Assembly: GCF_900258475.1 (NCBI RefSeq)
Contig: NZ_LT984887.1
Coordinates: 800,200-864,199 of the forward strand
Length of the DNA: 64,000 nt
Origin: Anaerococcus sp. Marseille-P3915
GTDB lineage: Bacteria > Bacillota > Clostridia > Tissierellales > Peptoniphilaceae
Direction: 5' to 3'
This document shows, one piece after another, positions 10,966-48,339 of the stretch. How positions within the stretch are numbered: position 1 is the first letter of the stretch; every line of letters begins with the position of its first letter. Below the pieces are notes generated by a model. The model did no database searches and had not been told where the DNA came from. It saw nothing but the letters and a program-made list of their open reading frames with translations. Position numbers and translations under genes: made by a program.

Positions 10966-10976
10966 TTTTAATCCTC

Positions 10977-14433: not shown

Positions 14434-14506
14434 ATTTACCCCCTTAATAATATTTTGATAAATTTCAAATAAAAAATACGACTTACTTGATAACTTTTAT
14501 CATAAG

Positions 14507-14542
14507 TATATTGTAAAATATTTTCGTTTGTTTTACAATATA
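14507..14542. promoter_or_regulatory. Symmetric divergent promoter/operator between AraC and ABC genes
   Basis: A perfect 12-base inverted repeat, TATATTGTAAAA (14507-14518) and TTTTACAATATA (14531-14542), is separated by 12 bases. Read on either strand it gives the same hexamers, TTGTAA and TACAAT, 17 bases apart, so it can act as overlapping face-to-face promoters for araC (plus) and the transporter operon (minus). A second imperfect palindrome (TTGATAA / TTATCATAA, 14488-14505) lies on the transporter side and may bind the AraC protein. Confidence 0.6.
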
Positions 14543-14581
14543 TATAGGTTTATATGTCTAAACGTGTTATTGGAGGTTTGT

Positions 14582-15541
14582 ATGGAAAATTTTGAAAGTT
14601 TAATAAATGCTTATGTTTCATCGGAATTAAAAGACGAGAATTATTTTCATCCTCTAGGGAGGTATTATATAGCTAATACGAAATTATATAATGGTTATTA
14701 CTGGTATTACGAAAGTAGCGACTTTATAATAGACATTCATAATCTTTTCATAAAAGAAGATTTTGTAGAAGATGGCGTTGAATCAATGCAAAATTATGTT
14801 ACATTAATTTCCAATTTTGTAATGTCTGGAAACGGAGAATGGTTTAATCCCTATCAGTCAATTGAACCTTTTTCTATGTTTGTTATGGATCCAAGCGACA
14901 AAAAGAATAGATATCTTATACATAAAAATTCTAGATTGTGTCTTGTAGGTGTAAAATTTAAAAAAAGTTTTTTAGAAAAATACTATCCACCATATTCTTA
15001 CTCAAATAATGTAGATGATTTAAAAGATATGTTTTTTCAATCTAAAAATTCAATTATTAATCCAATAAGTAAGATTGCTAAAGATATTTTGACTTGTAAA
15101 CTTGAAAATGCTGAAGCTAAACTTTTCTTTGAGGAAAAGGTAAAAGAGTGGTTTTATATAACTGTTGAGGCTAGTGAAGATTCGAAAAATTTTAAGACTC
15201 TTTCAACCGAAGATGAAAAACTTATTGAGAATGTAGAAAGATATATTAGCGATCATTATTCTAACAACATACCTCAATCACTTCTAGAAAAAATCGCTTG
15301 TATGAGTGGAACAAAGTTAAAGGAAAGTTTTAAGAAAAAAAACAATTTGAGTATTACAGAATTTACCCAAAGAAAAAGAATGAATATAGCAGAACAATTA
15401 TTAGTAACCACTGATCTTGAAATAAGACATATAGCTAAAACTGTTGGATATACTTCAGCTAGCCGATTTAGCAAACTTTACAAAAGATATAAGGGAGTTT
15501 ATCCTAATGAGGTTAAAATTATGATTAATTTAAATAAATAA
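14582..15541 (+). CDS. AraC-family transcription regulator (YbtA-like position)
   Basis: The start is ATG 14582, placed 7 bases after TTGGAGG; an upstream in-frame ATG at 14528 lacks a ribosome site. The product is 319 residues. The C-terminal region (about 215-315) carries two helix-turn-helix motifs of AraC/XylS type: PQSLLEKIACMSGTKLKESFKKK, and then IRHIAKTVGYTSASRFSKLYKRYKG with the usual YPNEV ending. The N-terminal two thirds should be the ligand-sensing part. It is transcribed away from the YbtP/Q-like operon, just as ybtA is from ybtPQ in Yersinia, where YbtA responds to yersiniabactin. I infer that it senses the siderophore made here and activates the transporters. Confidence 0.85.
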   Translation: MENFESLINAYVSSELKDENYFHPLGRYYIANTKLYNGYYWYYESSDFIIDIHNLFIKEDFVEDGVESMQNYVTLISNFVMSGNGEWFNPYQSIEPFSMFVMDPSDKKNRYLIHKNSRLCLVGVKFKKSFLEKYYPPYSYSNNVDDLKDMFFQSKNSIINPISKIAKDILTCKLENAEAKLFFEEKVKEWFYITVEASEDSKNFKTLSTEDEKLIENVERYISDHYSNNIPQSLLEKIACMSGTKLKESFKKKNNLSITEFTQRKRMNIAEQLLVTTDLEIRHIAKTVGYTSASRFSKLYKRYKGVYPNEVKIMINLNK

Positions 15542-19118: not shown

Positions 19119-19714
19119 ATAATACCCGCCTTTTCAAATTGCTTTTTCAAAAGTTTAGAACCTATAAAAGCACTAAATAAAGCAACTAAAAAAGTTCCAA
19201 TCACAATAACATAAATCATCCAATCAGCAGCTGCTGCATTCATAGACTCTATATATGTTATATCTGTCCCCTTCTCTATCATTGCATTTGACCAAGACTT
19301 AGGATCCATAAAATATACGACAAAAGTCCCTATATCTCCAAGTGCAAATACTCCAAAAGAAAGGATGTTTGTTTTTTTACTTTTATATGACTTGCTTCCT
19401 GCTATAAACTCAGCAATTATCCCCATAACTAAAGTTCCAAGACCCATAGCCCAATGCATGCCAGTTGCAAATCTCAAAATACAAATTATTATTGCCAAAA
19501 TAGCAATAGTTCCTCTTTTAGCCACTTTCGAGATCAGAAACATAAATATTATTCCTGATAAAAGAGCACTACCCATTGGCTGATAAAAGGTTAATACAGG
19601 ATTCATTCCAAAAGGCATTCCCCCAATCATATTAAATATAAAATAGAGAGCTGTAAAAACCCCTATAGTAATCAAATCCTTTGTTTTTAGACCATTCATA
19701 TTATTTTTATTCAT
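19115..19714 (-). CDS. ECF transporter substrate-binding (S) component, MptD/Trep_Strep type
   Basis: The product has 199 residues and about six membrane helices, starting LKTKDLITIGVFTALYFIFN, with FGMNPVLTFYQPMGSALLSG and RFATGMHWAMGLGTLVMG. This fits the MptD/Trep_Strep family of putative ECF S components, whose substrates are poorly known. It overlaps the thiazolinyl imide reductase gene by 8 bases, which physically links transport to siderophore synthesis. The substrate is not shown by the sequence. The ferric siderophore is the attractive candidate because no lipoprotein or FecCD-type permease is present anywhere in the window. Confidence 0.78.
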   Translation of the reverse strand: MNKNNMNGLKTKDLITIGVFTALYFIFNMIGGMPFGMNPVLTFYQPMGSALLSGIIFMFLISKVAKRGTIAILAIIICILRFATGMHWAMGLGTLVMGIIAEFIAGSKSYKSKKTNILSFGVFALGDIGTFVVYFMDPKSWSNAMIEKGTDITYIESMNAAAADWMIYVIVIGTFLVALFSAFIGSKLLKKQFEKAGII

Positions 19715-20786
19715 TTTTTCCTCCTTTTAAATCATTAATTTTAATTGCATTTTTTTTATACGGTTGAATTATTTTACTTTGTCCAAGCTCTCTAGATAAT
19801 TCACCCCATGTCTCTATCGCTGAAATCAAGTATTGTTGCTCCACTATATTAGCCTTTTTACTATCTATACAATTTATAAATTCTATAATGGACTTTGAAA
19901 TAGAATTAACCCAACTTAATTTCATCATACTACTATAAGTTTCTTCGTTATCTTCAGCTATTTCAAATGTTTTTAATTTCGAAAACTCATTGCTTTCTTC
20001 TAAATTAAATTTTCCATTTTTATCATGTGGCTTATCCAAACAACTCTCCCATATTATAGGTCCATTTGTACCTGATAATGTCAAATTCCCTGAGTTCGTT
20101 ATAAACATTATTTTATGCATTAATAACATGTAATTATCTGGATTTTTCGCAGTCATTTGATTTTGCACACTTATACATATAGGAATATCGTTTATATACC
20201 CTTCTATAATCTCAAAAGGTGATTCTATATTCTGCGTAGATATATTTCTAAATTCATAAGGTTTTAGTCCTCCCAAAGCTCTTCCCAAAATATCTATAAG
20301 AGGAAACAATACATGTACACTGCATTGTGCAGAAATAAATCTAATTTTCGACAACTTATTTAGCTTTTTAGATAAACTCAAAAATGTATCTACACTTTTT
20401 AAATTTGGATAAAATGTGTTAAGTTTATAAAAACAAGAATTTTCTCTTGATAATTTCAAAAACTCTATATATTCTTTTAAATGAACTGGTTGTTCCTGAA
20501 TTACATTTACTCCATTCTTTAACAGTTGCTTAACCAAATCACTGCCTGCCCCACCTATCAATGTTGACCCTATAACAACACAAGCCAAATCTATTTCATT
20601 AAGATTCACATCATTTAAGGTTGTATATATTGGTATTTTATACTTTTTAGCATAACTTTGAGACAATTCACTACCTTTTGACAAAATGCCTACTATCTGA
20701 AATTTTTCATTCATATTTTCGATAGCTTTTATATAAAACTGTCCAAATCCTACACCACAAACCAATACTCTATATTTGTTTTGCAT
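19707..20786 (-). CDS. Thiazolinyl imide reductase (Irp3/YbtU/PchG type)
   Basis: The product has 359 residues. It has an N-terminal Rossmann fold (VLVCGVGFGQFYIKAIE, the Gly-rich NADPH loop), VVIGSTLIGGAGSDLVKQLL, and the Gfo/Idh-like QEQPVHLKEYIEF motif near residue 95. Family members (YbtU 366, PchG 349 residues) reduce a thiazoline ring to thiazolidine, using NADPH, while the intermediate is bound to the NRPS. The gene follows the saccharopine-dehydrogenase-like gene by 3 bases in the NRPS operon. It probably reduces the middle ring, as in yersiniabactin, or the last ring, as in pyochelin. Confidence 0.87.
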   Translation of the reverse strand: MQNKYRVLVCGVGFGQFYIKAIENMNEKFQIVGILSKGSELSQSYAKKYKIPIYTTLNDVNLNEIDLACVVIGSTLIGGAGSDLVKQLLKNGVNVIQEQPVHLKEYIEFLKLSRENSCFYKLNTFYPNLKSVDTFLSLSKKLNKLSKIRFISAQCSVHVLFPLIDILGRALGGLKPYEFRNISTQNIESPFEIIEGYINDIPICISVQNQMTAKNPDNYMLLMHKIMFITNSGNLTLSGTNGPIIWESCLDKPHDKNGKFNLEESNEFSKLKTFEIAEDNEETYSSMMKLSWVNSISKSIIEFINCIDSKKANIVEQQYLISAIETWGELSRELGQSKIIQPYKKNAIKINDLKGGKNE

Positions 20787-20789: not shown

Positions 20790-21911
20790 TTATATTTCCC
20801 CCCTTTCTTGGCTAACACAAATTTCATCTCTTATTGATTTGCCATTTAATTTAATATCTAAAATAGCTTTTCTGTATAGCAACTCTTCTAAAACATCTTT
20901 ACTATCCAAAATCTCAAACGCCCACATTGTTTTATTTATGTCATCTCTATCCAACAACTCTTTTACACACATTGCTGTTAAATAACCGTTTATAAGATAA
21001 GTATCTCCACATATAACTTCTAAAAACTCCTCATATTCCCCAAACCCATAGTCTAGAATTATAGAACATTGATACTTGTATTGAAGTAAATTATCCTTAG
21101 CTTTTCTTTTACTTGATATTTGCTCATTAATGTAATCGGCAACTTGATATACTTTCTCCAAGGAATATTCTTTCTGGATTTCTGAAACACCCTGTCTTAG
21201 AATCTTATCATGCTCTGGGTTGAGATACACATTATTCCAATAAACTTCATTATTAGGAAATTTTTCAGAAACATTTAATAACTCTTTAGAAATATATTTT
21301 ATACATACAGAATTCAAAGGTAAAAAATCAACATTATTTTGTTCTTTTAAATCAACTTCTCTGCTTATTTTTTTCTTTTCTCCTTTATAGATAAAACAAT
21401 TGGTCTCAATATATCCATCTAATGAACTCATTAAAACATCAATTAATGCATTTAATGTCACTTTCTCATTTCCTCCAGCATACATGTAAATACGTTTTAA
21501 GTTTTTTGAATATTTTTCATTGAGCCACTTCAAAACAATTCCAGATAATCCTGGGAAATTTCCAGTACCTATTACAGATTTTGTATTTAAAATTATTTCA
21601 TCATCCAATAAATTAACGCCAAATAAATCAACATATTTTAAATCAAGTTTTTTTATTGCATAAGCAATTTTAGGGCTTGTAACATATGAAGGTCCTGTCG
21701 CATTAACTATCAAGTCGCAATCCTTACAAAAAAGGTACAACTCTTTATCATTCAAAACATCAACGGATACGTGCTCAATATATTTATCTACGAGATCTTT
21801 TTTTATATATCTATGTCCACATCTTAACCTATACCCACTTTGCTTCAACTCCTCAAATACTATATTCCCGCAAAAGCCACTAGATCCCAATATACCTATC
21901 TTTTTTTTCAT
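20790..21911 (-). CDS. Saccharopine dehydrogenase-like NAD(P)-dependent oxidoreductase
   Basis: The product has 373 residues. The N-terminus is a Rossmann fold (KIGILGSSGFCGNIVFEEL), followed by CDLIVNATGPSYVTSP and VIGTGNFPGLSGIVLKWL, a pattern found in saccharopine dehydrogenase-like proteins. Its start overlaps the NRPS stop by 4 bases, so it is part of the assembly line operon. Proteins of this general type accompany some pyochelin-like clusters; from memory, PchK of enantio-pyochelin producers is a reductase distinct from PchG and may be of this kind. Whether this one reduces a second ring, releases an aldehyde or does something else is open. Confidence 0.75.
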   Translation of the reverse strand: MKKKIGILGSSGFCGNIVFEELKQSGYRLRCGHRYIKKDLVDKYIEHVSVDVLNDKELYLFCKDCDLIVNATGPSYVTSPKIAYAIKKLDLKYVDLFGVNLLDDEIILNTKSVIGTGNFPGLSGIVLKWLNEKYSKNLKRIYMYAGGNEKVTLNALIDVLMSSLDGYIETNCFIYKGEKKKISREVDLKEQNNVDFLPLNSVCIKYISKELLNVSEKFPNNEVYWNNVYLNPEHDKILRQGVSEIQKEYSLEKVYQVADYINEQISSKRKAKDNLLQYKYQCSIILDYGFGEYEEFLEVICGDTYLINGYLTAMCVKELLDRDDINKTMWAFEILDSKDVLEELLYRKAILDIKLNGKSIRDEICVSQERGEI

Positions 21912-24900
21912 TGTTTTTTATCTCCAAAAATATTTTTAAATACTTCACTTGCCATTTTCCCATTTAAACATGTTAAGTGATTCCCTTTTATTTTTTGTAG
22001 CTTTATATCCCCTAAAGTTGCATTCTTCCAAAATTTTTCATTATCAATATTATCGAGCGGTAAAAAAGTAAATTTTTCATTATCACAATATAAAACTTTT
22101 ACATCTCCTACATAATTTTCAGGCTCATATAGCATAGCAGCCTCAAAACTTTGAGAGAATATGTTAAATCTTTGCTTAATATTACTTAAAGTATTTATTT
22201 CATTAAGCTTTTCGTTTTCAATGCTATTTAACATCCTATTAAAACGCTCATTTTCATCTAATGTACTAAATTCTACATAACATTCTTTCACATTCTTAAA
22301 TTTATCAATAGACTCTAAAAATAAATCATCCCTTTGCATTAATTTAAGATTATAATTCTTCGATAAGTATAGTAAGCTCTTTCTCACTTCTTCGTCTGAA
22401 ACTGAATGACCAGCTTTATTAATATTCGCTCCTATGAGTTGTGCAAATGCCCTTTCTAATAGAAAATTATTTAGTATCATCTTTTTGCATATCATAGTAT
22501 CTATTGTGGTCACCATATTTACCTTCAAACCTTTTTCTAATAGAACTTTACCAGTTTCAATAGCTATCAACCCACCCGTACAAAATCCTATTAATTCGAA
22601 TTCTTTTTCTCCCGTCTGCTCTAATAGATTTGCATACTCGTATCCTAATGTTGATATCAAGTTATCTGGAGATATTGATAAAAAACTTTTTTCATCAATA
22701 TTTCCTAATCCGTATAAATTATACTTATCACAATTTTCATTTATTAATGGTATCAAGCTCGAATATGGTCCCAAGCTTCCTAAACCATCATGAAATAAAA
22801 CACATGCTGAATTCGTAGTCTTTTTCTCACTCAGTAAAATTATTTTTCCTATACTCTCATTATCTTCTTTTAGTTCTTCTTGCGAGTTAAATATAAAATT
22901 ACTACACATTTCTCTTAAGGAATCTGATTGAATTAAGCCCAACATTATCTGATCCCAAGGAACTTCTTTAAACTCTGCTAAGTTTTGTTTCATTTTAGAG
23001 GCAATCTGTGCAGCTATTAAAGAATCACCTCCTAATTCGAAAAAGTTGTCATTAATGCTCAAACTTTCAACTTTCAATGTTTCTTTCCATATTTGAACTA
23101 AATTTTTTTCTAAATTAGTTGCAGGTCCAACTTCCTTCTTATTTATTTCTTTTATTTTTACTCTTTTATTAATTCTTTCCTTTAAATCATCTCTTAGTTT
23201 TCTTCTATTAATACAAGCTTCCCTTGTAAGAGGGATTGAATTAATAACATTAAATGTATTAACTCTAATAGGATAAGGCAAGAGTCTTAATATATTATTT
23301 AAAATTCTTTTTTTATCTAAATCAATAATACTTTCTCTAAATTTTACAATATATAAACATTGTCCCAAAATATCTCGTTCTCTGCTATTGTCTGGAAAAC
23401 ACTTCACCAAATCACCATTGCAATAATTTATGATTTTATTCATGTCATTCATTGATAAAAACACTTGATCCGTATCTTCTCTAAATCCTTTTATATGGTC
23501 TAAGCCTGCATGAAACTCCATTGAAGTTAATAACGCATAACTTCCGGGTAAACCTTCAAGAATTACTAGATGTCCATTTCTAGTAAGCATTCCCTTAAAT
23601 TGTTCTAATACTTCAGATTCATCATTTGCATTATGAAATACATTATTGCAAATGATTAAATCAAACTCTGAATTATTCATTCCCTGTTCAAAATAATCTT
23701 TATTTATATCGTAAATTCCAAAATCTATATTATTATACTTTATAAAATTTTTTTCTGCTTCATTAATAAATGACTGAGAAATATCAGTAAATAAATACTT
23801 TATATTATAATTTTTAATTTGCTTCATTAAATCAATAGTGGTTCCTCCAACTCCTCCCCCTACTTCTAAAATCCTGAAATCCTTGTTAGGAAAGCGTTGA
23901 TTGAAATCATCTATAATATCATTAATATATTTTATCGTTGCTTTATTCATTATGTTACTTATAGGATTGTTTTTATATGCTGCTAAAGCTACATCAAAAG
24001 AACCATTTGGGAAAAATAACTCAACTGGATTTATCTTTCCTTGTAGCAATTTAATTAGATTCACTCGTGATTCATAAAAATAATTCATCATTATATCGCT
24101 GTATTTAACGTGCAAATCTATCTCTTTCCATTTTTCCCATGCCTTTCCTATATTATCTACTCTACAACTATTTAATTTGTATCCTCTGTTTGCGTTGTAT
24201 TTAATAATTCCCTCGGAAATAAGTGCATTAAGCCATCTTTTCAATAATCTTTTGTATATATCAACAACCTTTGTTTCATAATATATTTCTTTAATAGAAT
24301 ACCACTTGTTTTTATTAACAAATACTCCTAATTTTAAAAATGTTTGAAAAATATCCTCTATAGCCGTTTCGTTTGATGCCTGCATCCACCTTAAAAAATT
24401 ATCCAAGTTAAAGTCATCCACATCTTTTATGTTGAACTCCGAAAATTTAATATTTCTGGTATCTTTGGTTGCTTCAGAAAAATTTGGTTGGACAAACACA
24501 TCTACGCTACAATCATTTTTATTGAGGACAATTGCAGACTTATGAATATCTTTTAAAGAATTAATTTTACTTTCAATTTCATAAACATTAATATCGTTAC
24601 CCTCTAATTTTACATCACCAGTACTATCATGGGTTACTATTATACTATCTGATGTATACATTCCTCTAAATTTTGTTTTCGCAAGAACATTTTTTTGATC
24701 AGTACTGTTATATATGTCACTACTTGACTCATCGTTCGATTTTTTGTTGACGAATATATCACCTACAACCCATTCTGGGCACATAGACAAATGCTGATCC
24801 AAAATAGAAACTTCACCGCTCGATAGATTCTTGTTAAATGAAAGCAAATTATCTTCATGATCCATCTTTACATACTCTTTACATAAAATCATATACTGCT

Positions 24901-27343
24901 CATTATCTTGAATTGTAAAATCATCAATCATAAATATAATTCTAAAACTTTCTAATAACTCTGGAAATTGATTTATTAAGCTCATAGAGTCAATAGCAGT
25001 TATAACAATTAAAGTTTTAGAAATTATTGATTTTATTTTTGATTTACGAATATGATTTTTACATAACACTTCAAGTTGATGCATATTGACCTGTATGAAT
25101 TCTGAGTCCATTATCATTTTATTATATTTTTGTTGTGAAATATTTTTGCACAGGTTTAATGTTGATTGAGATAATAAGCATATTAATAAATTCGTAATTA
25201 AAACACGGCTATTGTTATTTTCACAAACTAGTAATTCATCAGCTTTTCTTACTTTCAATAAATCAATTTGTTTTCTGACAAAAGAAAATATGTTTTTAAC
25301 CTTGATAGGATAAAATCTCATTTCACCTAATTGATCCATCTCCTTTGAAATGAGTGTAGCCTTTGCTATATCAGTTATTTCAAATTTATCTGGTTTTCCA
25401 TCATCAAAATCTTCTATCTGTTCCAAAGAAATAATTTTTAAATTTTTATAAATCTCTCCATCTAAGCAAAAATCGTTAATATCATTAATTAGAGCAAATT
25501 TAATATCATACTTCTTGTTTAGCGACTCTATTTCTTCTAAATCTTCCGTTTCATCAATAGGTAATGCTCCCCCTCCTATTGATAATATTGCTAAGATAGC
25601 TCCGACTTTTAAAAAAGCATCCGGTAAATTAATTAAAACAGTATCTCCAGCTTTGCATTTATTTATAATTAATAAATCTCTAATATTTCTTACTAGCAAA
25701 CCTAATTTTTTATACGTATATTTTTGATCATAATTATTCAATATTATTTTAGAAGCCATTTCTTCTAGATATAGATTTCCAATAAAAGATTCAAAATTCA
25801 TATTGTCATTAAACTCCGATGACAATATATGACTCTGGCCAAATGTTCTTAACACTTCTTTATCTTTGCTAGAGTTTTCTTTACGTCTATTTAGTATAAT
25901 ATCAGAGAATCTTGTAAAAGCTGATTCAATCATACCTTTAGGGAATATATTATCTCTTACATCCCATGTAATCAATATTCCACCCTTGTCTCTCATTACC
26001 TGACAATCAAGTATTACTTGTGGGGTCTGTGTTATTTTATAAACCAATTCCCCAAAATTACTTATACTGTTACTTTTAATGTTCTCTTGAATGCCTAAAG
26101 CACTTGTAAAAACATATGGATATATTATATTCTGTTTTCTTGATTTTGATACTTCTCTAAGAACTTCAATACCTGAAAAACTTCTATTATCAATATCCTT
26201 CCAAAGTTGAAGCTGGATATTTTGTGCATTTTCCACAAATTCATTTTCGTTTAAATTGCTTATTTCTAGTAAATTGATATCAGTAAAATCCCCTACAATA
26301 GAACTAATATTAGGATGAATATCATCTCTCTCCGAAATTGTGACATTTATACAAAATCTTTTTTCGCTAGACCAACGGCTTAATACTTCTGCATATGCTG
26401 TTAATATAAACGCTGTTAGGGTTATTTTGTTTCTGCTACAAATATCTTGTATTTCTAATTCTCTCTTTTCAGTTATACGAAGATTAAATTGTTTTATTGA
26501 TACATTTCCTTCACTTGATTTGGTTGTTAATGTTGGTCCTTCAGGTAAATCTTCAATTTTTTTCAACCAATAATCTTTCGCTTTATTATAGTTGATTCGA
26601 TATTCACTTGTTTTTTTGAAGTTTTCATCGAATACTATAATATCTCTAAATGTTATTCCTTTGTTTTCTAACTTAATATCTTCAAAATATGAGTCCTCAA
26701 GATCTCTAATTATAACTCCAATGCTTGTAAAGTCTGCAATCAACATATCCAAAGACAAATGAATTATACTGTAATCATCAAATGATGTTATTTCTATGTC
26801 ATATAGTGGCCATTTCCCTAACTCATAAGTCTTTGAAGATAATCTCTTTCTAACATTTTCCAAATGTTCGTCATTAAAATGGTATTTTGAACACCTTTTA
26901 GTATATCTTATATCTGGAATATTATAATCCTTTAAGATTTTTTGTTTTCCATCATTGTAAATTACAGCATGTAACATTTCATTTGCTATTATTACATCAG
27001 TCCAGGATTTCTTAAATTTAGCTATATCAATTACAGGATATTTTATTTCACAATAAATTTTACAGTTTGTTTGTCCATATTTATATAGCTCCCCTTTACC
27101 TACTGTATAAGCTAATTGCATATTTGTTAAATCAAATTCTTCATTTAAATTTTCCTTGTCAATTATTACAGGAGAGCAACTTTTTGCAAGAAAATCTATT
27201 AACTCATCTCTTATCTTAGAAAGTTCCTCTTGAATTGCTTTATTCATAACACCTTTTGGGGAATTATAGCATAGTTTTCCATTTTCTAAAAATAACCTTA
27301 TGCCTTGCTTCTGATATTTTAGAATAGTTTTTTCTATCGACAT
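21908..27343 (-). CDS. NRPS 2: docking-Cy-A*(decayed)-MT-PCP-TE (PchF/HMWP1-end like)
   Basis: The product has 1811 residues, almost the length of PchF. Residues 1-55 resemble a TubC-type docking domain (QGIRLFLENGKLCYNSPKG). The cyclisation domain has the DxxxxDxxS motif as DMLIADFTS near 200. An adenylation-like region follows (about 510-1000) with only GGGALPID recognisable: the phosphate loop, YRTGD and the GHRIEIGEIE motif are lost or altered (GNDINVYEIE). A methyltransferase domain is intact (LEVGGGVGGTT near 1158, FTDIS, CNNVFHNA). The PCP has FFELGGDSL near 1436. The C-terminal thioesterase has GFCTGG near 1588 and His in GNHLTC near 1788. It should add, cyclise and methylate the last cysteine and release the product, with its PCP probably loaded in trans by NRPS 1. 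Confidence 0.9.
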   Translation of the reverse strand: MSIEKTILKYQKQGIRLFLENGKLCYNSPKGVMNKAIQEELSKIRDELIDFLAKSCSPVIIDKENLNEEFDLTNMQLAYTVGKGELYKYGQTNCKIYCEIKYPVIDIAKFKKSWTDVIIANEMLHAVIYNDGKQKILKDYNIPDIRYTKRCSKYHFNDEHLENVRKRLSSKTYELGKWPLYDIEITSFDDYSIIHLSLDMLIADFTSIGVIIRDLEDSYFEDIKLENKGITFRDIIVFDENFKKTSEYRINYNKAKDYWLKKIEDLPEGPTLTTKSSEGNVSIKQFNLRITEKRELEIQDICSRNKITLTAFILTAYAEVLSRWSSEKRFCINVTISERDDIHPNISSIVGDFTDINLLEISNLNENEFVENAQNIQLQLWKDIDNRSFSGIEVLREVSKSRKQNIIYPYVFTSALGIQENIKSNSISNFGELVYKITQTPQVILDCQVMRDKGGILITWDVRDNIFPKGMIESAFTRFSDIILNRRKENSSKDKEVLRTFGQSHILSSEFNDNMNFESFIGNLYLEEMASKIILNNYDQKYTYKKLGLLVRNIRDLLIINKCKAGDTVLINLPDAFLKVGAILAILSIGGGALPIDETEDLEEIESLNKKYDIKFALINDINDFCLDGEIYKNLKIISLEQIEDFDDGKPDKFEITDIAKATLISKEMDQLGEMRFYPIKVKNIFSFVRKQIDLLKVRKADELLVCENNNSRVLITNLLICLLSQSTLNLCKNISQQKYNKMIMDSEFIQVNMHQLEVLCKNHIRKSKIKSIISKTLIVITAIDSMSLINQFPELLESFRIIFMIDDFTIQDNEQYMILCKEYVKMDHEDNLLSFNKNLSSGEVSILDQHLSMCPEWVVGDIFVNKKSNDESSSDIYNSTDQKNVLAKTKFRGMYTSDSIIVTHDSTGDVKLEGNDINVYEIESKINSLKDIHKSAIVLNKNDCSVDVFVQPNFSEATKDTRNIKFSEFNIKDVDDFNLDNFLRWMQASNETAIEDIFQTFLKLGVFVNKNKWYSIKEIYYETKVVDIYKRLLKRWLNALISEGIIKYNANRGYKLNSCRVDNIGKAWEKWKEIDLHVKYSDIMMNYFYESRVNLIKLLQGKINPVELFFPNGSFDVALAAYKNNPISNIMNKATIKYINDIIDDFNQRFPNKDFRILEVGGGVGGTTIDLMKQIKNYNIKYLFTDISQSFINEAEKNFIKYNNIDFGIYDINKDYFEQGMNNSEFDLIICNNVFHNANDESEVLEQFKGMLTRNGHLVILEGLPGSYALLTSMEFHAGLDHIKGFREDTDQVFLSMNDMNKIINYCNGDLVKCFPDNSRERDILGQCLYIVKFRESIIDLDKKRILNNILRLLPYPIRVNTFNVINSIPLTREACINRRKLRDDLKERINKRVKIKEINKKEVGPATNLEKNLVQIWKETLKVESLSINDNFFELGGDSLIAAQIASKMKQNLAEFKEVPWDQIMLGLIQSDSLREMCSNFIFNSQEELKEDNESIGKIILLSEKKTTNSACVLFHDGLGSLGPYSSLIPLINENCDKYNLYGLGNIDEKSFLSISPDNLISTLGYEYANLLEQTGEKEFELIGFCTGGLIAIETGKVLLEKGLKVNMVTTIDTMICKKMILNNFLLERAFAQLIGANINKAGHSVSDEEVRKSLLYLSKNYNLKLMQRDDLFLESIDKFKNVKECYVEFSTLDENERFNRMLNSIENEKLNEINTLSNIKQRFNIFSQSFEAAMLYEPENYVGDVKVLYCDNEKFTFLPLDNIDNEKFWKNATLGDIKLQKIKGNHLTCLNGKMASEVFKNIFGDKKQ

Positions 27344-27351: not shown

Positions 27352-30300
27352 CTATATAAAACCTATTTCATTATCATTGTTATTGTTTTTATTCCTGTTA
27401 TTTATTTCCTTAAAGACAGCATTAGAAAAATCTTGGAGCATAGGATTTTCTAATATTACAACCATAGATAAATTAATATTAAATGTTTCGTTTACTAAGT
27501 TTGTTAATTGCACAGCATTAAGCGAGTTGCCACCAGATTTGAAAAAATCATCTACCAACTCTAGTTTCTCTACTTTTAATACATTTTCTACAATCCTGAC
27601 TATCTCATTTTCAAATGTTTGTATACTCTCTTCTGACTCACTATTGAGGTTTTTATCATTCCTGTTGTTTGAAATTGATTTTTTAATAAGGTCTTTTTTC
27701 TCAATATGGTTTATTGTCAAATCCATTTCTGTGTCATCATTTGAAATTCTTATTAATTCATCCACTTTTTTGTTGCTTGATTCTAAAAAATCATTTATTA
27801 ATTCTACATATGCGTTGAAACATATATCTATCTCCTCATTTATGAATAAATTAGTTACATAATCCCATGTCAATATAAGGTCTTCATCTAATTCTATTAC
27901 TTGATGATCTAACCATACTTGAGGCGTTTGGCTTATAGAGTAATTTAACTCACCGAGAAAATCTACATTTCTATTTCCTTTCATTCCTAAGCCACTTGTA
28001 AATATAATTGGAGCAATCATATCTGTATGTTTCTTCTCTCTTAAATCTCTTAAAAACTCTATTGAACTATATGATGAATGCATCATATCAGAAAGGAGTT
28101 GTTCCTGAATTTCCTTTGCATTTTCCAAAATAGTTTTGCTTTTATCAAGTTTTATTTCCAATAAACATAACTGAGTAAAGTCTCCCATAACTTTATGAAT
28201 TTCAGGATGAATATCTTCCTTTATAAATTGTGTCACATTAACTACAAAATTATTGCTGTTACTATATTTGCATAACATTGTAGAAAATAATGATAAAAGT
28301 ATAGTTGTTGGTGTTACCTCTACTTCAGTCGCTAATCTTTTAATTTCTATCCAATCGTCTCTCTTTATTCTAGCTTCTTTTCTTTTAAATCTTTGTTCAG
28401 AGTTATTTCCATCATTTTTCATAATGGATAATCTTGGCATGATAGGAAATGAGTCCAACCTGTTTATCCAATAATCTTTATCTCGTTCATAATGAAATCT
28501 GTCTTCTTGTTTTTTATATAAAACATAGTCTCGAAATGTTGGTTCAATAGTTTCCGAACTAAAATCTCCATCATATTTAAGCTTTATTTCTTTTAAAAAC
28601 TCAAACATGCTCCAACCATCAAGTATTGCATTATCAATTCCTATAAATATTCGAAATAGAGTTTTAGTAATTTTAGTTACTTTAAAATCAAATGTAGGAA
28701 AATTACTCAAATCTATAATTCTATGCGAAAGTGATTCTCTCATTTGCAATAAAATATTTTCTTTAGCATCATCATCCAAAGTGCTTAAATCATTTATATT
28801 TAATAAATAGTATGGAACTTCTTTCAGAATTACTTGTTCTCCTGAATTTAATATTATTGTTCTTAAAGCAGGATTATATTCAATGATATCATTTAACGCT
28901 TTCTGTAGTTTATTGACATTTATATCCATACTATCGAATTCAAAATAACAATGTGTTGATACATTCCCTAAGTTATACGCCCCCTGTCTACCTATCCAAT
29001 AAGCCATTTGTACATCAGTAAGTGGAAATGGCTCATATATGTTTTCTTTATCTGGCACTAAAGTTCGTATTTTGCTTCTATTGATAAACATTTTGTTTTT
29101 ATCTATAAAATCCGACAAAGAAGCTACAGAGGCACTCTGAAAAATGTCTTTTATCGAAATTTCTATCCCCATTTTATTTTTGACTTTCCCGATAATGGAT
29201 GCTGCTGTTAATGAGTCCCCTCCAACGATAAAATAATTATCATTAACTCCAATATTTTCATTGCATAAACATTCTTTCCAGATATTCAATAATATTTTTT
29301 CTGTATCTGATATGTCATTTGTTATTTCTTCTGAAATAACTCTAGAATGCTTGACATCCTTCAGTAAATCTTTTTTAAGCTTCTTTCTATCTGCTTTTCC
29401 ATTCTTATTAAGTGGGATTTCATCCACATGATAAAAATAAGTTGGAATCATATAATTTGGAACTATTCCCAACAAATAGTCTTTTAGATCTTCAAATGAG
29501 ATTTTATTACTTTTTAGTTTTTCGATAAAAAAAGTATTGAAATTAGCCTTGGATGACTCATTGACATTGCTTTCATAAAGAATTCTACTAATATCTGTTT
29601 TTAAATTAATGTCGTTATTAATACCTATGTTTTCTGGATTCAATATATCAGCTGTAATCAGAGAAAGTAAATTTAATTTATTAATTTCATTTCCTACAAG
29701 TAACCCATTTGGTTTCAATTTCTTTATTAGCTTCTTTAATGTCTCTCTTGAATCTCCACTCCTGTGAATTGAATTTAATGCTATTACCACATCAAAATAA
29801 TCCTCTTCCAATCCATCATTTATTTCTTGATTAATAATAGAATATCTAAATTTACTATTTTCATTAATATCAGATAAGTCTTCTTTTAAAAACACAGAAT
29901 TGTCTGCATAAACATATTCCTCAACATAATCTTTGTATTTATTAAATAATCTATTTGTCATTTGACTGTTTCTAGTTGAATATTCTATGATTCTTAATTT
30001 TCTGTCTGTATTCTTATCTATATAATTATTTAGAGAGTTTACTATACTATCTATAGATTCTTTATAATCTTCTATGGCTTCAGCAAGTCTTACTAAATTA
30101 AATTTTTTATCTTCTCTGTAGAAAACTTCTAAAGGATCTCTCCCTGTTTTTAAAATATCTATAAGCTCTGGTGTAATTTCTTTTGTGAATCTTTCAATTT
30201 CCTGTACTGATTCCACGTCTATTTTTATTTTAGAAATAGAGCTATCTTCTTTAAATCTTCCATCAACCTTTTTTAAAAGCTTAAAGTTTACTAGTGTATC

Positions 30301-33300
30301 AATCCATTTGTCCACTATTATTCTATTTGAACTTGACAAGTTTATATCTTTATATATTTCATTTAAAGAGTAACTTTTACTAGTAAAGTCAATCTTTAAC
30401 CCATTAAATACATTTAAAATGGTTTTCAAAACTAGTTTGTCAATTTCTTTGTTTTGGTATATAGTTTCATCATTTGATGAAGGTATTTTAGGTTTTACCA
30501 AAAAAGAAGTATTAAAACCTTGATTTTTTGGCATGTTGTTAACTTCATATGAATTAACATCACTTTTAATAAAGGCTACTAACTTCTTGCTTCCTCCTCT
30601 TTCCATTAAATCAACAATTACATTTTCTACCCCAGCATACTTTGCTATAGCTTTCTCAATTTCACCAATTTCAATTCGATGTCCCTTAACTTTAACTTGA
30701 GTATCTTTTCTACCAAGAAATTCTATGGTACCATCGTTCCATATTCTTCCGTTATCCCCTGTTCTGTACCACCTTATATCATCTTCTACAATGAATTTAT
30801 TATCGGTTAATTCAGTATCTCCTCTGTACCCTTCAGCAACACCTACTCCTCCGATTAATAACTCGCCTTTAACATAATTAGGACAAGTTCTGCCAAAGTC
30901 ATCTACCACCTTATATACTTGATTCTCTAGAGGCTTTCCATACGGTATCGAAACCCAATTGTTCGGAATTTCTTTAGGTACATTTAGATAGTTTGACCAT
31001 ATAGATGCTTCCGTAGCCCCACCCATGGCTACAACAACAGAGTCATTGCTCATATTATAAAATCTTCCGGGTAGATTTAAAGCAATCCAATCTCCTGATA
31101 ACATAACAACTCTAAAAGGTAATTTTCTCTTTTTTCCTTCAGCCATTGTAACTAACATGTCAAATAATATTGGAACTGAATCCCAAATAGTAACATTATA
31201 TCTATCAATTAATTCAAGCCATTCATCTGGATTCCTATAATTGTCTTCACTTGTGGTAATAAATGTACCACCAGCATGTAAAAGTCCAAATATATCAAAC
31301 ACAGAAAGGTCAAAATCTATAGAAGACACCATTAAGACAGTATCATTAGTGTTAATGTTATATTTCTTATTCAGGTCTATACAGGTGTTGATAGCACTAG
31401 TGTGCATTATTTCAACGCCCTTTGGCACTCCTGTTGTCCCTGATGTCATAATAATGTACGCACTGTCATATGGACTAACTTGAACAGGACTTTCTAATTT
31501 CTTATCGCTATTCATACCTTTATCTAAATCAATAATCTTAACTTCTTCGTTATTCAAAGAACAACTAATTATTGTTTCTTCATCACTTATTATGTGATTT
31601 ATACCAATTTGATCATATATTTTACTTCTTCTTTCATTAGGCTGTGTAATTCCTATAGGTACATATGCTGCGCCGCTAAATAAAATTCCAAAAATAGCAA
31701 AAATTTGTCTGCATCCTCTTGGAAGTGTTATTCCTATATAATCACCCTTTTTTATGCCTTCTGATTGTAAATAAAAAGCAATTTTTAAAGCATTATCATA
31801 AAGTTCTCCATAACTTATCTCTTCACCTGTAGAAGAGTCTATAATTGCCACTTTACTTGGATTTAATATAACATTTTTAATAAATCCATCATAAATTCTT
31901 TCATCTGGATATTTTAGTGGAATAATAGCTTCAATTTCTTGCCTTCTAATTTCCTTTTGCCTTTGAGATAAAACATCTGTTTTCTTTTCCCAATTTTCTT
32001 TTTTAGTTAAGGAAATAAGGAGTTCATAAAAAGCATCAAACATATCATTTAATAATTCTTCTGGGTAAAGTTCTTCCACAGCATCCCAACATAAAATTAA
32101 CTTTTCATCTGTTACATAAGTCTGAAAATCCAACCAAACACCTGGTGTTTGAGAAATCATATATGAAATTCCCCCAAGCGCTTCTCTTGACTTTTCCGTT
32201 TCTAAAGGATAATCAATATTACAAGCAAACACAATAGGAGCCACGTTATTATTGTTACCTATTTCTTTATACATGTCTCTTTGAACTTGGACACCAGAAT
32301 ATGAGCTATGCGAAACATTTTCTAAAAATACTTCACTAACCCTCTCTATAGTTTGTATCAATGTTTCCCCTAGTCTTCTCTCATAATCTACCAATAATAA
32401 GTTAGTAAAATCTGCAATCATATTACTTAAATTACTGTTTTCAGTATCCCTATTAAATAAAGGCATATTTATTAAAAACTTTTCTTGATTAGTCCATCGT
32501 TCTATTACAAGACCATAGCAGGCCAATAAAACCATTGATGGTGTTACTTTATGCAAAGAGGCTAGTCTTTTTATTTCACTCCAACTTTCTTCATCTACCA
32601 CTTTCTTTCTTCTAATAAACTTAGTTTCTTTAACCATTTCAGGCCTAATTTTTAGTGGTAAATTAGGTGCTTCCATAGGAAAGTCATTTTCAATTTTTGT
32701 CTTCCAAAAGTCCTTATCCTCTTCTAATTGTAATTGATTGTCTTTATTATCTCCAATATAATCTTTGAAGGTATAGTCTATAGAATGTTTTTCACCTTCT
32801 CCTACATAATTTCTTGTTAATTCTTTAATCATAATGCTTAGACTCATAACATCCGCAACCAACAAATCAATATCTAAAAAGATTTTTGTCTTTCCCTCAG
32901 GTAATAAAGCAATTCCAAGACCTGCTACTTCACCTTTTTCGACCTTTAATTTCCTATGAGATATTTTTTCTCTAATTTCATTTAAAGAATCCTTAATTTC
33001 TTTATTATCTAGATTCTCTAAGTTGTATACACTGATTTCGTCTGTGTAAGGAGACTCCATGATTTCCTGAGTGCCATCACTGTTAAATTTTGCTCTCAAC
33101 ATTGGATGATCTTTTTGTAATTTTATCCACGCTTCATTTAATTTTTTAACATTTATATCTTTACCATCAATTTCTAGATAGGCATGACACCCTACGCCTC
33201 CCAAAACCTGATCATCTTCTCTACCAACCCAGTAAGCATATTGCACATCTGTTAACGGAAATTTAATACCAACATATTCTTTGTTCTTAACTATTTCTGC

Positions 33301-33561
33301 TTCTTTTGATATAAATTTATCGTTAATTTTTGCACTCTTAATTAACATTTCCCATTCATTAAAAGTTGGTTTTTCCATTAATTTAGAGAATGATATCCTA
33401 ATACCTGATTTTCTTAACTTATTAGATATTTTCATTATCATAATAGAACTTAATCCTCTTTCTATAAGATTATCGCCCTTCTCAAAATCATCGTTAATTT
33501 CCATGCGAATATGTTCTTTAATGGACTGTATCACTTTGTTTTTTATATCATTTATCTCCAT
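27352..33561 (-). CDS. NRPS 1: ArCP-Cy-A(E*)-PCP-Cy-PCP (HMWP2-like)
   Basis: The product has 2069 residues (HMWP2 of yersiniabactin has about 2035). An aryl carrier domain (phosphopantetheine Ser in RGLSSIMI near 38) is followed by cyclisation domain 1 (DLLVADVMS near 235). The complete adenylation domain has MTSGTTGVPKG near 707, FDLSVFDIFG near 752, YRTGD and GHRIEIGEIE. An inserted methyltransferase-like domain, with a ruined SAM motif (RIIEYSTRN near 1190), matches the pseudo-methyltransferase epimerase of PchE and HMWP2. PCP1 (GGDSL near 1449), cyclisation domain 2 (DNAILDGWS near 1645) and PCP2 (GGNSL near 2012) follow. It accepts salicylate and builds two thiazoline rings from cysteine. 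The start has AGGAGGAAT upstream, and the stop lies 8 bases before NRPS 2. Confidence 0.93.
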   Translation of the reverse strand: MEINDIKNKVIQSIKEHIRMEINDDFEKGDNLIERGLSSIMIMKISNKLRKSGIRISFSKLMEKPTFNEWEMLIKSAKINDKFISKEAEIVKNKEYVGIKFPLTDVQYAYWVGREDDQVLGGVGCHAYLEIDGKDINVKKLNEAWIKLQKDHPMLRAKFNSDGTQEIMESPYTDEISVYNLENLDNKEIKDSLNEIREKISHRKLKVEKGEVAGLGIALLPEGKTKIFLDIDLLVADVMSLSIMIKELTRNYVGEGEKHSIDYTFKDYIGDNKDNQLQLEEDKDFWKTKIENDFPMEAPNLPLKIRPEMVKETKFIRRKKVVDEESWSEIKRLASLHKVTPSMVLLACYGLVIERWTNQEKFLINMPLFNRDTENSNLSNMIADFTNLLLVDYERRLGETLIQTIERVSEVFLENVSHSSYSGVQVQRDMYKEIGNNNNVAPIVFACNIDYPLETEKSREALGGISYMISQTPGVWLDFQTYVTDEKLILCWDAVEELYPEELLNDMFDAFYELLISLTKKENWEKKTDVLSQRQKEIRRQEIEAIIPLKYPDERIYDGFIKNVILNPSKVAIIDSSTGEEISYGELYDNALKIAFYLQSEGIKKGDYIGITLPRGCRQIFAIFGILFSGAAYVPIGITQPNERRSKIYDQIGINHIISDEETIISCSLNNEEVKIIDLDKGMNSDKKLESPVQVSPYDSAYIIMTSGTTGVPKGVEIMHTSAINTCIDLNKKYNINTNDTVLMVSSIDFDLSVFDIFGLLHAGGTFITTSEDNYRNPDEWLELIDRYNVTIWDSVPILFDMLVTMAEGKKRKLPFRVVMLSGDWIALNLPGRFYNMSNDSVVVAMGGATEASIWSNYLNVPKEIPNNWVSIPYGKPLENQVYKVVDDFGRTCPNYVKGELLIGGVGVAEGYRGDTELTDNKFIVEDDIRWYRTGDNGRIWNDGTIEFLGRKDTQVKVKGHRIEIGEIEKAIAKYAGVENVIVDLMERGGSKKLVAFIKSDVNSYEVNNMPKNQGFNTSFLVKPKIPSSNDETIYQNKEIDKLVLKTILNVFNGLKIDFTSKSYSLNEIYKDINLSSSNRIIVDKWIDTLVNFKLLKKVDGRFKEDSSISKIKIDVESVQEIERFTKEITPELIDILKTGRDPLEVFYREDKKFNLVRLAEAIEDYKESIDSIVNSLNNYIDKNTDRKLRIIEYSTRNSQMTNRLFNKYKDYVEEYVYADNSVFLKEDLSDINENSKFRYSIINQEINDGLEEDYFDVVIALNSIHRSGDSRETLKKLIKKLKPNGLLVGNEINKLNLLSLITADILNPENIGINNDINLKTDISRILYESNVNESSKANFNTFFIEKLKSNKISFEDLKDYLLGIVPNYMIPTYFYHVDEIPLNKNGKADRKKLKKDLLKDVKHSRVISEEITNDISDTEKILLNIWKECLCNENIGVNDNYFIVGGDSLTAASIIGKVKNKMGIEISIKDIFQSASVASLSDFIDKNKMFINRSKIRTLVPDKENIYEPFPLTDVQMAYWIGRQGAYNLGNVSTHCYFEFDSMDINVNKLQKALNDIIEYNPALRTIILNSGEQVILKEVPYYLLNINDLSTLDDDAKENILLQMRESLSHRIIDLSNFPTFDFKVTKITKTLFRIFIGIDNAILDGWSMFEFLKEIKLKYDGDFSSETIEPTFRDYVLYKKQEDRFHYERDKDYWINRLDSFPIMPRLSIMKNDGNNSEQRFKRKEARIKRDDWIEIKRLATEVEVTPTTILLSLFSTMLCKYSNSNNFVVNVTQFIKEDIHPEIHKVMGDFTQLCLLEIKLDKSKTILENAKEIQEQLLSDMMHSSYSSIEFLRDLREKKHTDMIAPIIFTSGLGMKGNRNVDFLGELNYSISQTPQVWLDHQVIELDEDLILTWDYVTNLFINEEIDICFNAYVELINDFLESSNKKVDELIRISNDDTEMDLTINHIEKKDLIKKSISNNRNDKNLNSESEESIQTFENEIVRIVENVLKVEKLELVDDFFKSGGNSLNAVQLTNLVNETFNINLSMVVILENPMLQDFSNAVFKEINNRNKNNNNDNEIGFI

Positions 33562-33573: not shown

Positions 33574-35160
33574 CTATAAGGCAGATTTTCTAAGTGTTTC
33601 TTTACTTATCTTACCAACGCTTGTCAATGGCCAAGCATCAACCTTTTTAACTAAATCTGGTAATTTGAAATGGGCTACTCCATGCTCTTTTAGAAATGTT
33701 CTGATTTCATTTAGAGTAATCTCGTTATCTCCTGAAAGGACAAAAACTCCTATTTTTTCTCCTAAAATTTGATCTGGAATTCCTACAACTTGTACTTCTA
33801 CAATTTTATCGTGAGTTAATAGAATTTCTTCTAGCTCTGTAGGGGTTATTTTTTCTCCAGCTCTATTGATCATTTCTTTTAGCCTTCCTACAATTTGAAA
33901 ATTACCATCTTTAAGCTTTCTAGCTTTATCACCTGTTTTGAAGTAACAATCTTCAGTTATACAGTTCTTATTAATTTCATCCAAATTATAATAACCATAA
34001 ATTGTATATGGGCCTCTAACTATAAGTTCTCCATACTCCTCTACAGGTAATTCTTTCCCTTCTTCATCAACAATCAATACCTCATCATATTCACTTATTG
34101 GTTTACCTTGTGTATTGTATATAGTTTCACTATTATCATCTAAACTTGTAGTTGATATTAAACCTTCAGCAATTCCAAAAATTTGCTGAAGCTTACAAGA
34201 AAAACCTCTCTCGATTTTCTTGGCTGTAATTTGGTCTAAAACAGAACCACCAATCTGAATCAATTTTAAAGAGGATATATCATATTCATCCATTTCTAAA
34301 AACTCTATACACATATTAGCCATGGCAGGAACTAATCCAGTAATTGTAACTCTCTCTTCTTCAATTAACGGTATTATCTCATCAGGGCTTGTAGTAGGGC
34401 AAATCACTATTTTCCCTCCATAAAACAATGTTCCCATTATTCCAGGGCATCCTAAAGGAAAGTTATGAGACATCGGTAAAGCAGCTAAATATACACTTTC
34501 TTCAGTTAACCCACACCTTCGTCCCGAATACTCTGCTACATATAAGTAATCACAGTGTCTCCTTGGGATTAATTTCGGTATTCCTGTTGTTCCTCCAGAT
34601 AACAATAGTAAACCTATGTCTTTATAATCAACATTCACATTTTCTTCAATAGGCGTATTTGCTTTGATTTCTGTTAGAGATCTGAACTCTTCATTATCTC
34701 CCTGAATAAAAACTTTTATATCTGTTCTATTTTCTTTAATAACTTCTCTAATCATTTCCGTATAAGAAAATCCTAAATACCTATCTTGTGCGATATATGC
34801 CTTTGCTTCTGATAATTGAATTATTCCACTAATCTCCGTCTTTCTATGAGCTGGTAAAGACATAATTGGAATTACTCCTATTTTAAAAAGAGCAAAAGCC
34901 ACAAAAATCAATTCAGCACTGTTTGGTAGTTGTAATACAACTTTATCACCCTTTTTAAAGCCTTCTTTTAAAAATCCCTTTGCATATCTATTAGAGATAC
35001 TTTCAATCTCTTTATAAGAATACTCGTTTCCATTTTCATTGATGGCTATTTTTTCACTATATTTATTGGAAACTTTAGTTAAAAAATCACCTAGAGATAA
35101 ATGATTCCAAACCTCTTTGTCATAGAAGTCTTCTAATTTTTCTTTAATTTTTATATTCAT
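33574..35160 (-). CDS. Salicyl-AMP ligase (YbtE/PchD/DhbE family)
   Basis: The product has 528 residues from ATG 35160, chosen for the GGAGG upstream; the longer frame overlaps the PPTase gene further without need. Motifs include LLLSGGTTGIPKLIPR (phosphate loop), ALPMSHNFPLGCPG (aryl-acid binding region, with the Asn of DHBA/salicylate ligases), QIFGIAEGL, KTGDKARK and GRLKEMINRAGEKI with a C-terminal Lys in SVGKISKETL. The enzyme activates salicylate as the adenylate and transfers it to the N-terminal ArCP of NRPS 1. It sits between the PPTase and the NRPS genes in the same operon. Confidence 0.93.
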   Translation of the reverse strand: MNIKIKEKLEDFYDKEVWNHLSLGDFLTKVSNKYSEKIAINENGNEYSYKEIESISNRYAKGFLKEGFKKGDKVVLQLPNSAELIFVAFALFKIGVIPIMSLPAHRKTEISGIIQLSEAKAYIAQDRYLGFSYTEMIREVIKENRTDIKVFIQGDNEEFRSLTEIKANTPIEENVNVDYKDIGLLLLSGGTTGIPKLIPRRHCDYLYVAEYSGRRCGLTEESVYLAALPMSHNFPLGCPGIMGTLFYGGKIVICPTTSPDEIIPLIEEERVTITGLVPAMANMCIEFLEMDEYDISSLKLIQIGGSVLDQITAKKIERGFSCKLQQIFGIAEGLISTTSLDDNSETIYNTQGKPISEYDEVLIVDEEGKELPVEEYGELIVRGPYTIYGYYNLDEINKNCITEDCYFKTGDKARKLKDGNFQIVGRLKEMINRAGEKITPTELEEILLTHDKIVEVQVVGIPDQILGEKIGVFVLSGDNEITLNEIRTFLKEHGVAHFKLPDLVKKVDAWPLTSVGKISKETLRKSAL

Positions 35161-44126: not shown

Positions 44127-44140
44127 ATTATCCTCCTTTA

Positions 44141-44192
44141 TTAAGTTAGTCTTGACTAACTTAATTTTAACATATATATTTATGAAAATCAA
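44141..44192 (-). promoter_or_regulatory. Promoter with DtxR-like operator for the salicylate/chorismate operon
   Basis: On the minus strand TTGATT (44192-44187) and TAAAAT (44169-44164) are exactly 17 bases apart. From 44164 to 44141 lies a perfect palindrome with 11-base arms TTAAGTTAGTC and GACTAACTTAA and a 2-base centre. It covers the start point and ends 15 bases before the salicylate synthase ATG. The TTA-G-TTAG pattern resembles DtxR/IdeR-type boxes. The nearby DtxR-family gene is the obvious candidate regulator. Confidence 0.78.
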
Positions 44193-47002: not shown

Positions 47003-47047
47003 GGATCTGGTGTATCAACTTCTCCGGTAGTGTGGAAAGTTTTGTGT

Positions 47048-47081
47048 ATCAGCCCTCCTGATAGGATGTGGCTGATATTTT
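47048..47081 (+). terminator. Terminator of the mobC-relaxase operon
   Basis: ATCAGCC and GGCTGAT form a stem with a 15-base loop, followed by ATTTTT, 45 bases after the relaxase stop. Confidence 0.65.
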
Positions 47082-47118
47082 TCAATATGACCCATCATTT
47101 TCCCTTAAAGACAACCAA

Positions 47119-47154: not shown

Positions 47155-47163
47155 TATAATCTT

Positions 47164-48306: not shown

Positions 48307-48339
48307 ATTCTTTGTCCTCTAATAATCTCATTTAAAGTT

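Follow-up and report, generated by a model that had tools for sequence, protein, structure and literature searches.

A degenerate adenylation domain in the terminal synthetase of an equibactin-like cluster from Anaerococcus, probably supplied in trans by its partner synthetase

Organization of the gene cluster

The window, by which we mean the whole 64,000-nucleotide stretch of Anaerococcus sp. Marseille-P3915 analysed here (contig NZ_LT984887.1, positions 800,200 to 864,199), carries two nonribosomal peptide synthetases, NRPS1 and NRPS2, and the accessory genes listed in Table 1. NRPS2 is one open reading frame. Its adenylation (A) domain is degenerate and is called Adeg below. Judged by sequence, the cluster holds an ArCP, three heterocyclisation (Cy) domains, one working-looking cysteine A domain, a reductase, a phosphopantetheinyl transferase (PPTase) and an aryl ligase, and belongs with the salicylate-primed thiazoline lines of yersiniabactin and equibactin. 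Five shikimate-pathway genes are found near the two synthetases on the same strand.

A gene of 373 aa (20790-21911) lies between NRPS2 and the reductase gene. It has no confident family and a weak Rossmann/epimerase match (E 0.0015), and it could be the counterpart of EqbM. The nucleophile position of the NRPS2 thioesterase (TE) is occupied by Cys (GxCxG, 22571-22588). The same pattern is present in 12 of 18 scanned NRPS2-type proteins, some of them near copies, while the other six do not match it. The modelled methyltransferase (MT) of NRPS2 resembles C-methyltransferase structures, with a best Z of 40.4.

Table 1. Domains and genes of the cluster, with their positions in the window
Feature	Position	Strand	Evidence
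NRPS2, 1811 aa: TubC-Cy-Adeg-MT-PCP-TE	21908-27343	-	ORF, Pfam
TubC, N-terminal docking domain of NRPS2	27179-27343	-	PF18563, 48.8 bits (cut-off 26)
Cy (heterocyclisation) domain of NRPS2	25859-27148	-	PF00668, 89.2 bits
DMLIADFTS motif of NRPS2 Cy	26723-26749	-	D-x4-D-x2-S present
Adeg, decayed A domain of NRPS2 (A1-A8 part)	about 24494-25831	-	motif columns, family profile, AF2 model
A3-A5 stretch of Adeg, unrecognised by profile	24794-25393	-	branch length, profile gap, pLDDT
MT and linker of NRPS2, inserted between A8 and A9	23339-24376	-	PF08242, 61.1 bits
A9-A10 remnant of NRPS2, after MT; catalytic lysine column Cys	23174-23314	-	alignment
PCP of NRPS2, FELGGDSL	22949-23158	-	PF00550, 33.4 bits
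TE of NRPS2, GFCTGG (Cys for Ser) and GNH	21911-22813	-	PF00975, 29.6 bits
NRPS1, 2069 aa: ArCP-Cy1-A-MT/E-like-PCP1-Cy2-PCP2	27352-33561	-	ORF, Pfam
NRPS1 A domain, intact, code DLFDMSMI	30532-31911	-	TIGR01733, 356.9 bits (cut-off 317.4)
Aryl (salicyl/DHB type) AMP ligase	33574-35178	-	TIGR02275, 527.7 bits; best family, below cut-off 723.55
4'-Phosphopantetheinyl transferase (PPTase)	35157-35843	-	PF01648, 59 bits (cut-off 25)
Type II thioesterase	35845-36585	-	PF00975, 143.7 bits
Thiazolinyl imine reductase	19707-20786	-	TIGR01761, 264.2 bits (cut-off 188.8)
Salicylate synthase	42765-44192	-	TIGR03494, 424.6 bits (cut-off 325.15)

Degeneration of the A domain

The original prediction described a decayed but nearly full-length A domain in NRPS2 that keeps GGGALPID, has lost the phosphate loop (P-loop) and YRTGD, and carries GNDINVYEIE at A8. 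Our analysis bears this out in each respect. GGGALPID occupies residues 590-597 (25553-25576) and GNDINVYEIE residues 915-924 (24572-24601). In the alignment with relatives, Adeg shows ISKEMDQLGEMRFYPI at the P-loop, which is IIMTSGTTGVPKGVEI in NRPS1; the A4 motif FDLSVFD has become SRVLITN with loss of Asp235; A5 (GGATEASIWS) is unrecognisable and A7 (YRTGD) is missing. A10 reads PLTREACINRRKL against N-G-K in most relatives, and C stands in the catalytic lysine column. Thus A2 and part of A8 remain of the core motifs and the rest are lost.

For comparison, A-like rows of at least 30 bits were collected from NRPS-like frames of the window and 37 fetched stretches, with stand-alone ligases filtered out. 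Of the 66 rows, seven were set aside: a piece of the frame-broken L038 gene, two from a partly-N locus, two from a single L103 frame (one a remote ligase-like domain with 7 of 13 columns, the other a domain truncated at the stretch end), and the two that represent Adeg itself. All 13 catalytic columns are complete in 51 of the 59 comparable A domains, many of which are near copies of each other; one of the other eight has a single change and seven have both P-loop glycines replaced by Glu. Adeg keeps 3 of the 13.

The general families hardly recognise the domain. AMP-binding (PF00501) matches Adeg at residues 531-622 only, with 23.6 bits under the cut-off of 29.9, and TIGR01733 matches at residues 543-620 with 20 bits against a cut-off of 317.4. 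A profile built from the 59 A regions, 58 of relatives and one of NRPS1, gives 78.5 bits (E 1.9e-23 in a search space of 1000 sequences). The match is split into two pieces, one covering A1-A2 and one A6-A8, and misses A3-A5. On the same scale L045 reaches 654 bits and the P-loop-damaged L047 697, both being themselves in the profile. Five shuffled versions of Adeg were made, and the better of the two listed scores 2.1 bits. This score against the shuffles, taken with the motif losses, shows a domain whose homology to A domains exceeds chance and which is, by its motifs, non-catalytic. About 446-471 residues are left, approximately full length, aligning to A domains between Cy and MT. In addition to the significant homology, the region is located where an A domain is expected, between Cy and PCP, its MT lies between A8 and A9, and an A9-A10 remnant follows the MT. 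At the level of sequence we regard as confirmed that Adeg is a degenerate A domain decayed past likely use, and we infer that the protein itself is inactive in adenylation.

Predicted structure of the degenerate domain

A structural model had been proposed as a check on the decay, and the AlphaFold2 model of NRPS2 residues 496-1400, built with 13 other rows, indeed loses confidence in Adeg, less so in the control. The model is of middling quality (pLDDT 68.2, pTM 0.48), and pLDDT falls below 50 over most of residues 751-918, which overlap the second half of A3-A5. Ten-residue means reach 77-86 at model residues 31-100, part of A1-A2, and 72-80 at 431-460 in the C-terminal subdomain (Asub). The control, the NRPS2 of L036 with an intact A domain and the same 14 rows, has a pLDDT of 83.7 and drops below 50 only at model residues 172-174 and 912-923; the MT part is highly confident in the Adeg model and about equal in the control. 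To be noted, the pLDDT contrast is partly an effect of distance, since the alignment rows are 17-26% identical to Adeg and 26-53% to the control. Against the solved A domain 9n1v, Adeg superposes over 343 residues at 4.1 Å with Z 25.4, and the control over 412 residues at 2.0 Å with Z 48.3. The Foldseek list for the Adeg model is led by PchE (PDB 7emy) and by C-methyltransferases, the latter because the MT is part of the model.

By its model, Adeg looks like a damaged A fold. The partial fold is the one observation that would suit a domain still activating cysteine through altered motifs, and we give this reading hardly any credence: the P-loop, Asp235, A5, A7 and the A10 lysine are all lost together, and none of our alignments recovers them or the other core motifs in altered form.

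Confinement of the decay to the A domain

In the A core the window's NRPS2 is 18-21% identical to five relatives, against 28-44% in Cy, while these five, one of which (L047) is P-loop-damaged, share 36-54% of the A core among themselves. Branch lengths, estimated on one fixed topology from the Cy tree with 11 lines, agree with this. The window branch measures 0.76 in Cy, 0.99 in MT, 1.04 in PCP and 1.09 in TE, which is 1.2-1.4 times the median, and within Adeg it rises to 2.43 in A1-A2, 10.0 in A3-A5 (presumably the upper limit of the program) and 4.87 in A6-A8. For the sister line L045, which has no MT, the values are 0.55 in Cy, 1.24 in A1-A2, 0.18 in A3-A5, 0.48 in A6-A8, 1.29 in PCP and 1.51 in TE. 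Change in A3-A5 is thus saturated and A1-A2 is far better kept, which indicates that the decay of Adeg is old and uneven.

The loss of one catalytic domain could mean that the whole of NRPS2 is a pseudogene and the line stops at PCP2. We consider this very unlikely. The frame is open and complete in two genomes, the window's and that of G033 from the same genus, and the catalytic motifs DMLIADFTS of Cy, LEVGGGVG of MT, GGDSL of PCP and GFCTGG with GNH of TE are all present. With the decay confined to Adeg, and with ordinary branches and motifs elsewhere, the gene does not resemble a general pseudogene.

A domain that is near full length and in frame, while relatives lack A cleanly, is odd for a mere fossil. 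Adeg may be dead as an enzyme and selected as a scaffold, its N-terminal part forming the Cy-A platform and its C-terminal subdomain holding the MT; loading in trans would be unaffected. We regard this as a real but less favoured possibility. It would account for the length and open frame kept despite saturating change, for the MT sitting in Asub, for an A1-A2 branch just twice that of the sister beside a saturated A3-A5, and for the AlphaFold2 confidence, which is fair on parts of A1-A2 and Asub and poor between them. Other data are against it. The linker to the MT is unevenly kept: residues 1001-1050 are 38-40% identical to L036 and L040, their neighbours 16-24%. A scaffold of this type is not required in general, as L057 has Cy-MT-PCP-TE without any A domain.

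The window was also compared with G033 codon by codon. Over 16 genes (17015-44192) there are 14 amino-acid and 10 silent codon differences, and Adeg, with 471 of 8871 codons, holds four of the former and none of the latter (binomial P 0.005); the contrast of amino-acid to silent changes in Adeg is not significant (Fisher P 0.094). Three of the four (E527K, L573S, G649E) fall in the better-kept A1-A2, against the expectation for a scaffold. The genes at 9622-14433, a more diverged block (86 silent and 28 amino-acid codons), and at 14528-15541 (one and one) were left out. With 9622-15541 added, giving 43 amino-acid changes in 10826 codons, the excess in Adeg is not significant (P 0.116). The test is post hoc and based on four changes, and its outcome varies with the genes counted, so that it gives a hint of weak constraint on Adeg. 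This hint of relaxed change, and the relatives that do without an A domain, would suit a fossil. Persistence of Adeg is probably due in part to the MT inserted in the C-terminal subdomain and to packing of the N-terminal part on Cy.

Distribution among relatives

NRPS2 matches at E 1e-30 or better were found in 24 of 130 genomes of the family, the window's own included, and matches at 1e-60 in 16 of 391 genomes of the class and 3 of 398 of the phylum. The lines differ widely in their A domains. Each of three modules has one in L097 and L099. L036-L039, L098 and L106 have one A per synthetase (NRPS1 of L038 is frame-broken), and so has the L044 line, with frame-broken genes and one changed catalytic column. 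The NRPS2 A domains of L047-L052 and L104 are complete except for the P-loop, SETTENPKG in place of SGTTGxPKG in all seven; five of these, L049-L052 and L104, also miss the A10 lysine. They look like an early stage of A decay. In L053, L062, L056 and L057 the NRPS2 has Cy and no A, and in L054, L055 and L102 neither. The reverse arrangement is found in L040-L043 and L046, where NRPS1 is ArCP-Cy-PCP without A and the NRPS2 A is intact in all five; in these, trans loading is expected in the opposite direction.

In total, 16 lines, counting the window and its G033 copy, have an NRPS2 whose A domain is missing, decayed or damaged in the P-loop, and the NRPS1 A is intact in 15 of them; in the remaining line, L104, NRPS1 is cut by a contig end. 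Among lines with both synthetases read, none lacks A in both. The lines are non-independent samples, and their reading as stages of a single process is inferred rather than observed.

The Cy tree, built from 29 rows of which 28 are distinct, places the window's NRPS2 as sister (support 100/100) to L045, a line with an intact A domain and without MT. A second group (100/100) unites the lines damaged in the P-loop with the A-less L056; a third, joining L053 and L057, is less well supported (94/88). The branch of L060 is very long and its placement unsure, and that of L057 is long as well. The label "A intact" must change at least twice to agree with the branches that have good support. From these positions, A decay or loss seems to have occurred more than once, and separately in the window. 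The original prediction had seen in Adeg a fossil caught between the PchF state, with an active A, and the HMWP1 state, with A lost. The degenerate state holds, but the decay is not a step toward the A-less relatives, because the sister has an intact A and the A-less lines sit elsewhere in the tree.

Adeg was also searched for elsewhere. In the order, 12 of 249 genomes match at 1e-5, the own genome included; only G033 has Adeg (99%), the other ten matching at 21-29%. No match was found in viral contigs. In plasmids 507 records match (15 listed), each with its best place below 60% identity. The same cluster is present on NZ_GG666309.1, a scaffold of Anaerococcus tetradius ATCC 35098. NC_013164.1, a plasmid record of Anaerococcus prevotii DSM 20548, matches NRPS2.

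Several further features were noted among the lines. L053, with its A-less and MT-less NRPS2, lies on G022:C1 (115566 bases). The NRPS genes of L038, L044, L046 and L052 are split into several frames, perhaps as dying clusters or assembly errors. A candidate Asub remnant in L056 was dropped, as the gap scores 3.7 bits (E 0.82) against the A profile. The front half of NRPS1 in L056 (G024) is near the window's, with 998 bits for Cy1 (window itself 1005) and 938 of 1037 for A, and its NRPS2 is a different protein, A-less and MT-less, with 216 of 974 bits for Cy. This combination suggests a partner swap between lines.

Loading of the last carrier

The NRPS1 A domain has 13 of 13 catalytic columns and the pocket code DLFDMSMI. 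For EqbE, cysteine-specific by prediction, the code is DLYDMSMI (PMC3672683, Table 1). A search of the whole genome (2.25 Mb, 99% complete) with TIGR01733 at E 0.001 gave two matches, the NRPS1 A domain (361.3 bits) and the aryl ligase (139.5), and no third, though a gene may have been missed. With Adeg degenerate and the sole NRPS-type A domain found in the genome lying within NRPS1, trans loading is the natural reading, and NRPS1 is our best candidate for loading the NRPS2 PCP. PCP3 and PCP1 are 37% identical in the window, the top of the pairs printed, against 11-26% in five A-less lines, a weak indicator of a shared loading enzyme.

According to PMC8949500, albicidin, ramoplanin and enduracidin synthesis rely on stand-alone A-T modules to make up for dead A domains, and by analogy a different enzyme, such as the aryl ligase or an A protein encoded separately, might load the NRPS2 PCP. 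We consider this highly improbable, as the genome search, made for the TIGR01733 family alone, gave only the two matches above.

We think it likely that NRPS2 is a terminal synthetase with a dead A domain whose cysteine is supplied in trans by the single A domain of NRPS1. NRPS2 would then be a working terminal synthetase of an equibactin/yersiniabactin-like line with salicylate and three cysteines as the predicted substrate. Adeg, without its ATP- and amino-acid-binding residues, would not activate cysteine. The NRPS1 A domain would activate it, load its own PCP1 and PCP2, and also load the PCP of NRPS2, with the TubC docking domain possibly bringing the partners close. The Cy, MT, PCP and TE of NRPS2 would then act as usual.

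A more speculative version, to which we assign a small probability, sees Adeg as a repurposed pseudo-adenylation platform that has given up binding ATP and cysteine and arranges Cy, the inserted MT and whichever visitor, NRPS1 A domain or carrier, comes to it, with trans loading gated by docking. If so, the family, with its P-loop-damaged, A-less and NRPS1-A-less members, would be a natural experiment in which a three-A line came down to one shared A more than once and in either synthetase.

Comparison with known systems

The nearest characterised kin we found is EqbE/EqbG of Streptococcus equi ICESe2, rather than PchF/HMWP1. As described in PMC3672683, EqbE has the same order as NRPS1 (ArCP-Cy-A-E-PCP-Cy-PCP) with a single A, its cysteine code differs at one of eight positions, and EqbG, like NRPS2, is a second synthetase with Cy-MT-PCP-TE. 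The equibactin cluster also shares the aryl ligase, PPTase, type II thioesterase and thiazoline reductase, and it is located on an integrative conjugative element. Its authors propose that the one A domain, in EqbE, loads three PCPs, that of EqbG included (PMC3672683). Two differences are apparent from the same source: EqbG (1272 aa) is listed there without an A domain, whereas NRPS2 retains a near full-length Adeg and so is not of the EqbG type; and equibactin needed added salicylate in defined medium, whereas the window has a salicylate synthase and shikimate genes.

In yersiniabactin, the single A domain of HMWP2, designated A(E), serves PCP1 and PCP2 in cis, and in trans it also loads PCP3 of HMWP1 (PMC9547227). 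HMWP1 ends like NRPS2 in Cy-MT-PCP-TE and has no A domain, and no A remnant is mentioned in the part of PMC9547227 drawn on here. The N-terminal polyketide part of HMWP1 (KS-AT-MT-KR-ACP) is absent from NRPS2, which starts with TubC and Cy. PchE and PchF of pyochelin resemble the window in having MT or E within A, and PchF has the terminal order Cy-A-MT-PCP-TE. Unlike NRPS2, PchF activates cysteine with an A domain of its own. The code of this domain is given in Table 1 of PMC3672683.

Both parts of the arrangement are already known: dead A domains complemented by another protein, and A-less terminal modules that are loaded in trans (HMWP1) or proposed to be so (EqbG). BlmIII/BlmIV of bleomycin synthesis (Du 2003) belong with the former. 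The A domain of BlmIII is reportedly inactive and complemented in trans. In the albicidin type the helper is a stand-alone A-T module (PMC8949500), whereas in the window the upstream synthetase would take this part, and the dead domain has an MT inserted in it. As far as our literature searches go, what is new is the intermediate state of such a line, a decayed A domain that bears an MT, together with the graded series around it. In the literature searched, no paper naming both equibactin and Anaerococcus was found, and a prior mention of the cluster is possible.

The family bears on how a line with one A per module reaches a single shared A. It seems to hold the stages side by side, in either synthetase: three A domains, two, a damaged P-loop, a decayed domain of near full length, and clean absence. 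The order of events, and whether trans loading came before the decay, would be directly testable with purified proteins. For genome mining, one cysteine call per line may mean two or three residues in the product.

Mobile-element setting

Beside the cluster, at 45632-63060, the window encodes a relaxase, a 3566-aa SNF2/LPD18 protein, ToxN, a topoisomerase and a CD1107-like protein. The cluster looks like cargo of an integrative conjugative element, as equibactin is; comparable clusters carried by mobile elements have been published from S. equi and C. difficile RT023 (PMC3672683, PMC6814731). The topoisomerase gene (60059-61765) is 99% identical in G044, which belongs to another genus, 98% in G024 and 68% in G033. 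G044 and G024 carry different NRPS lines on their topoisomerase contigs, 25-65 kb away, and G033 shares the window's 9372-47002 at 98.7%. From the identities of topoisomerase and cluster, the element backbone and the NRPS cargo seem to have recombined.
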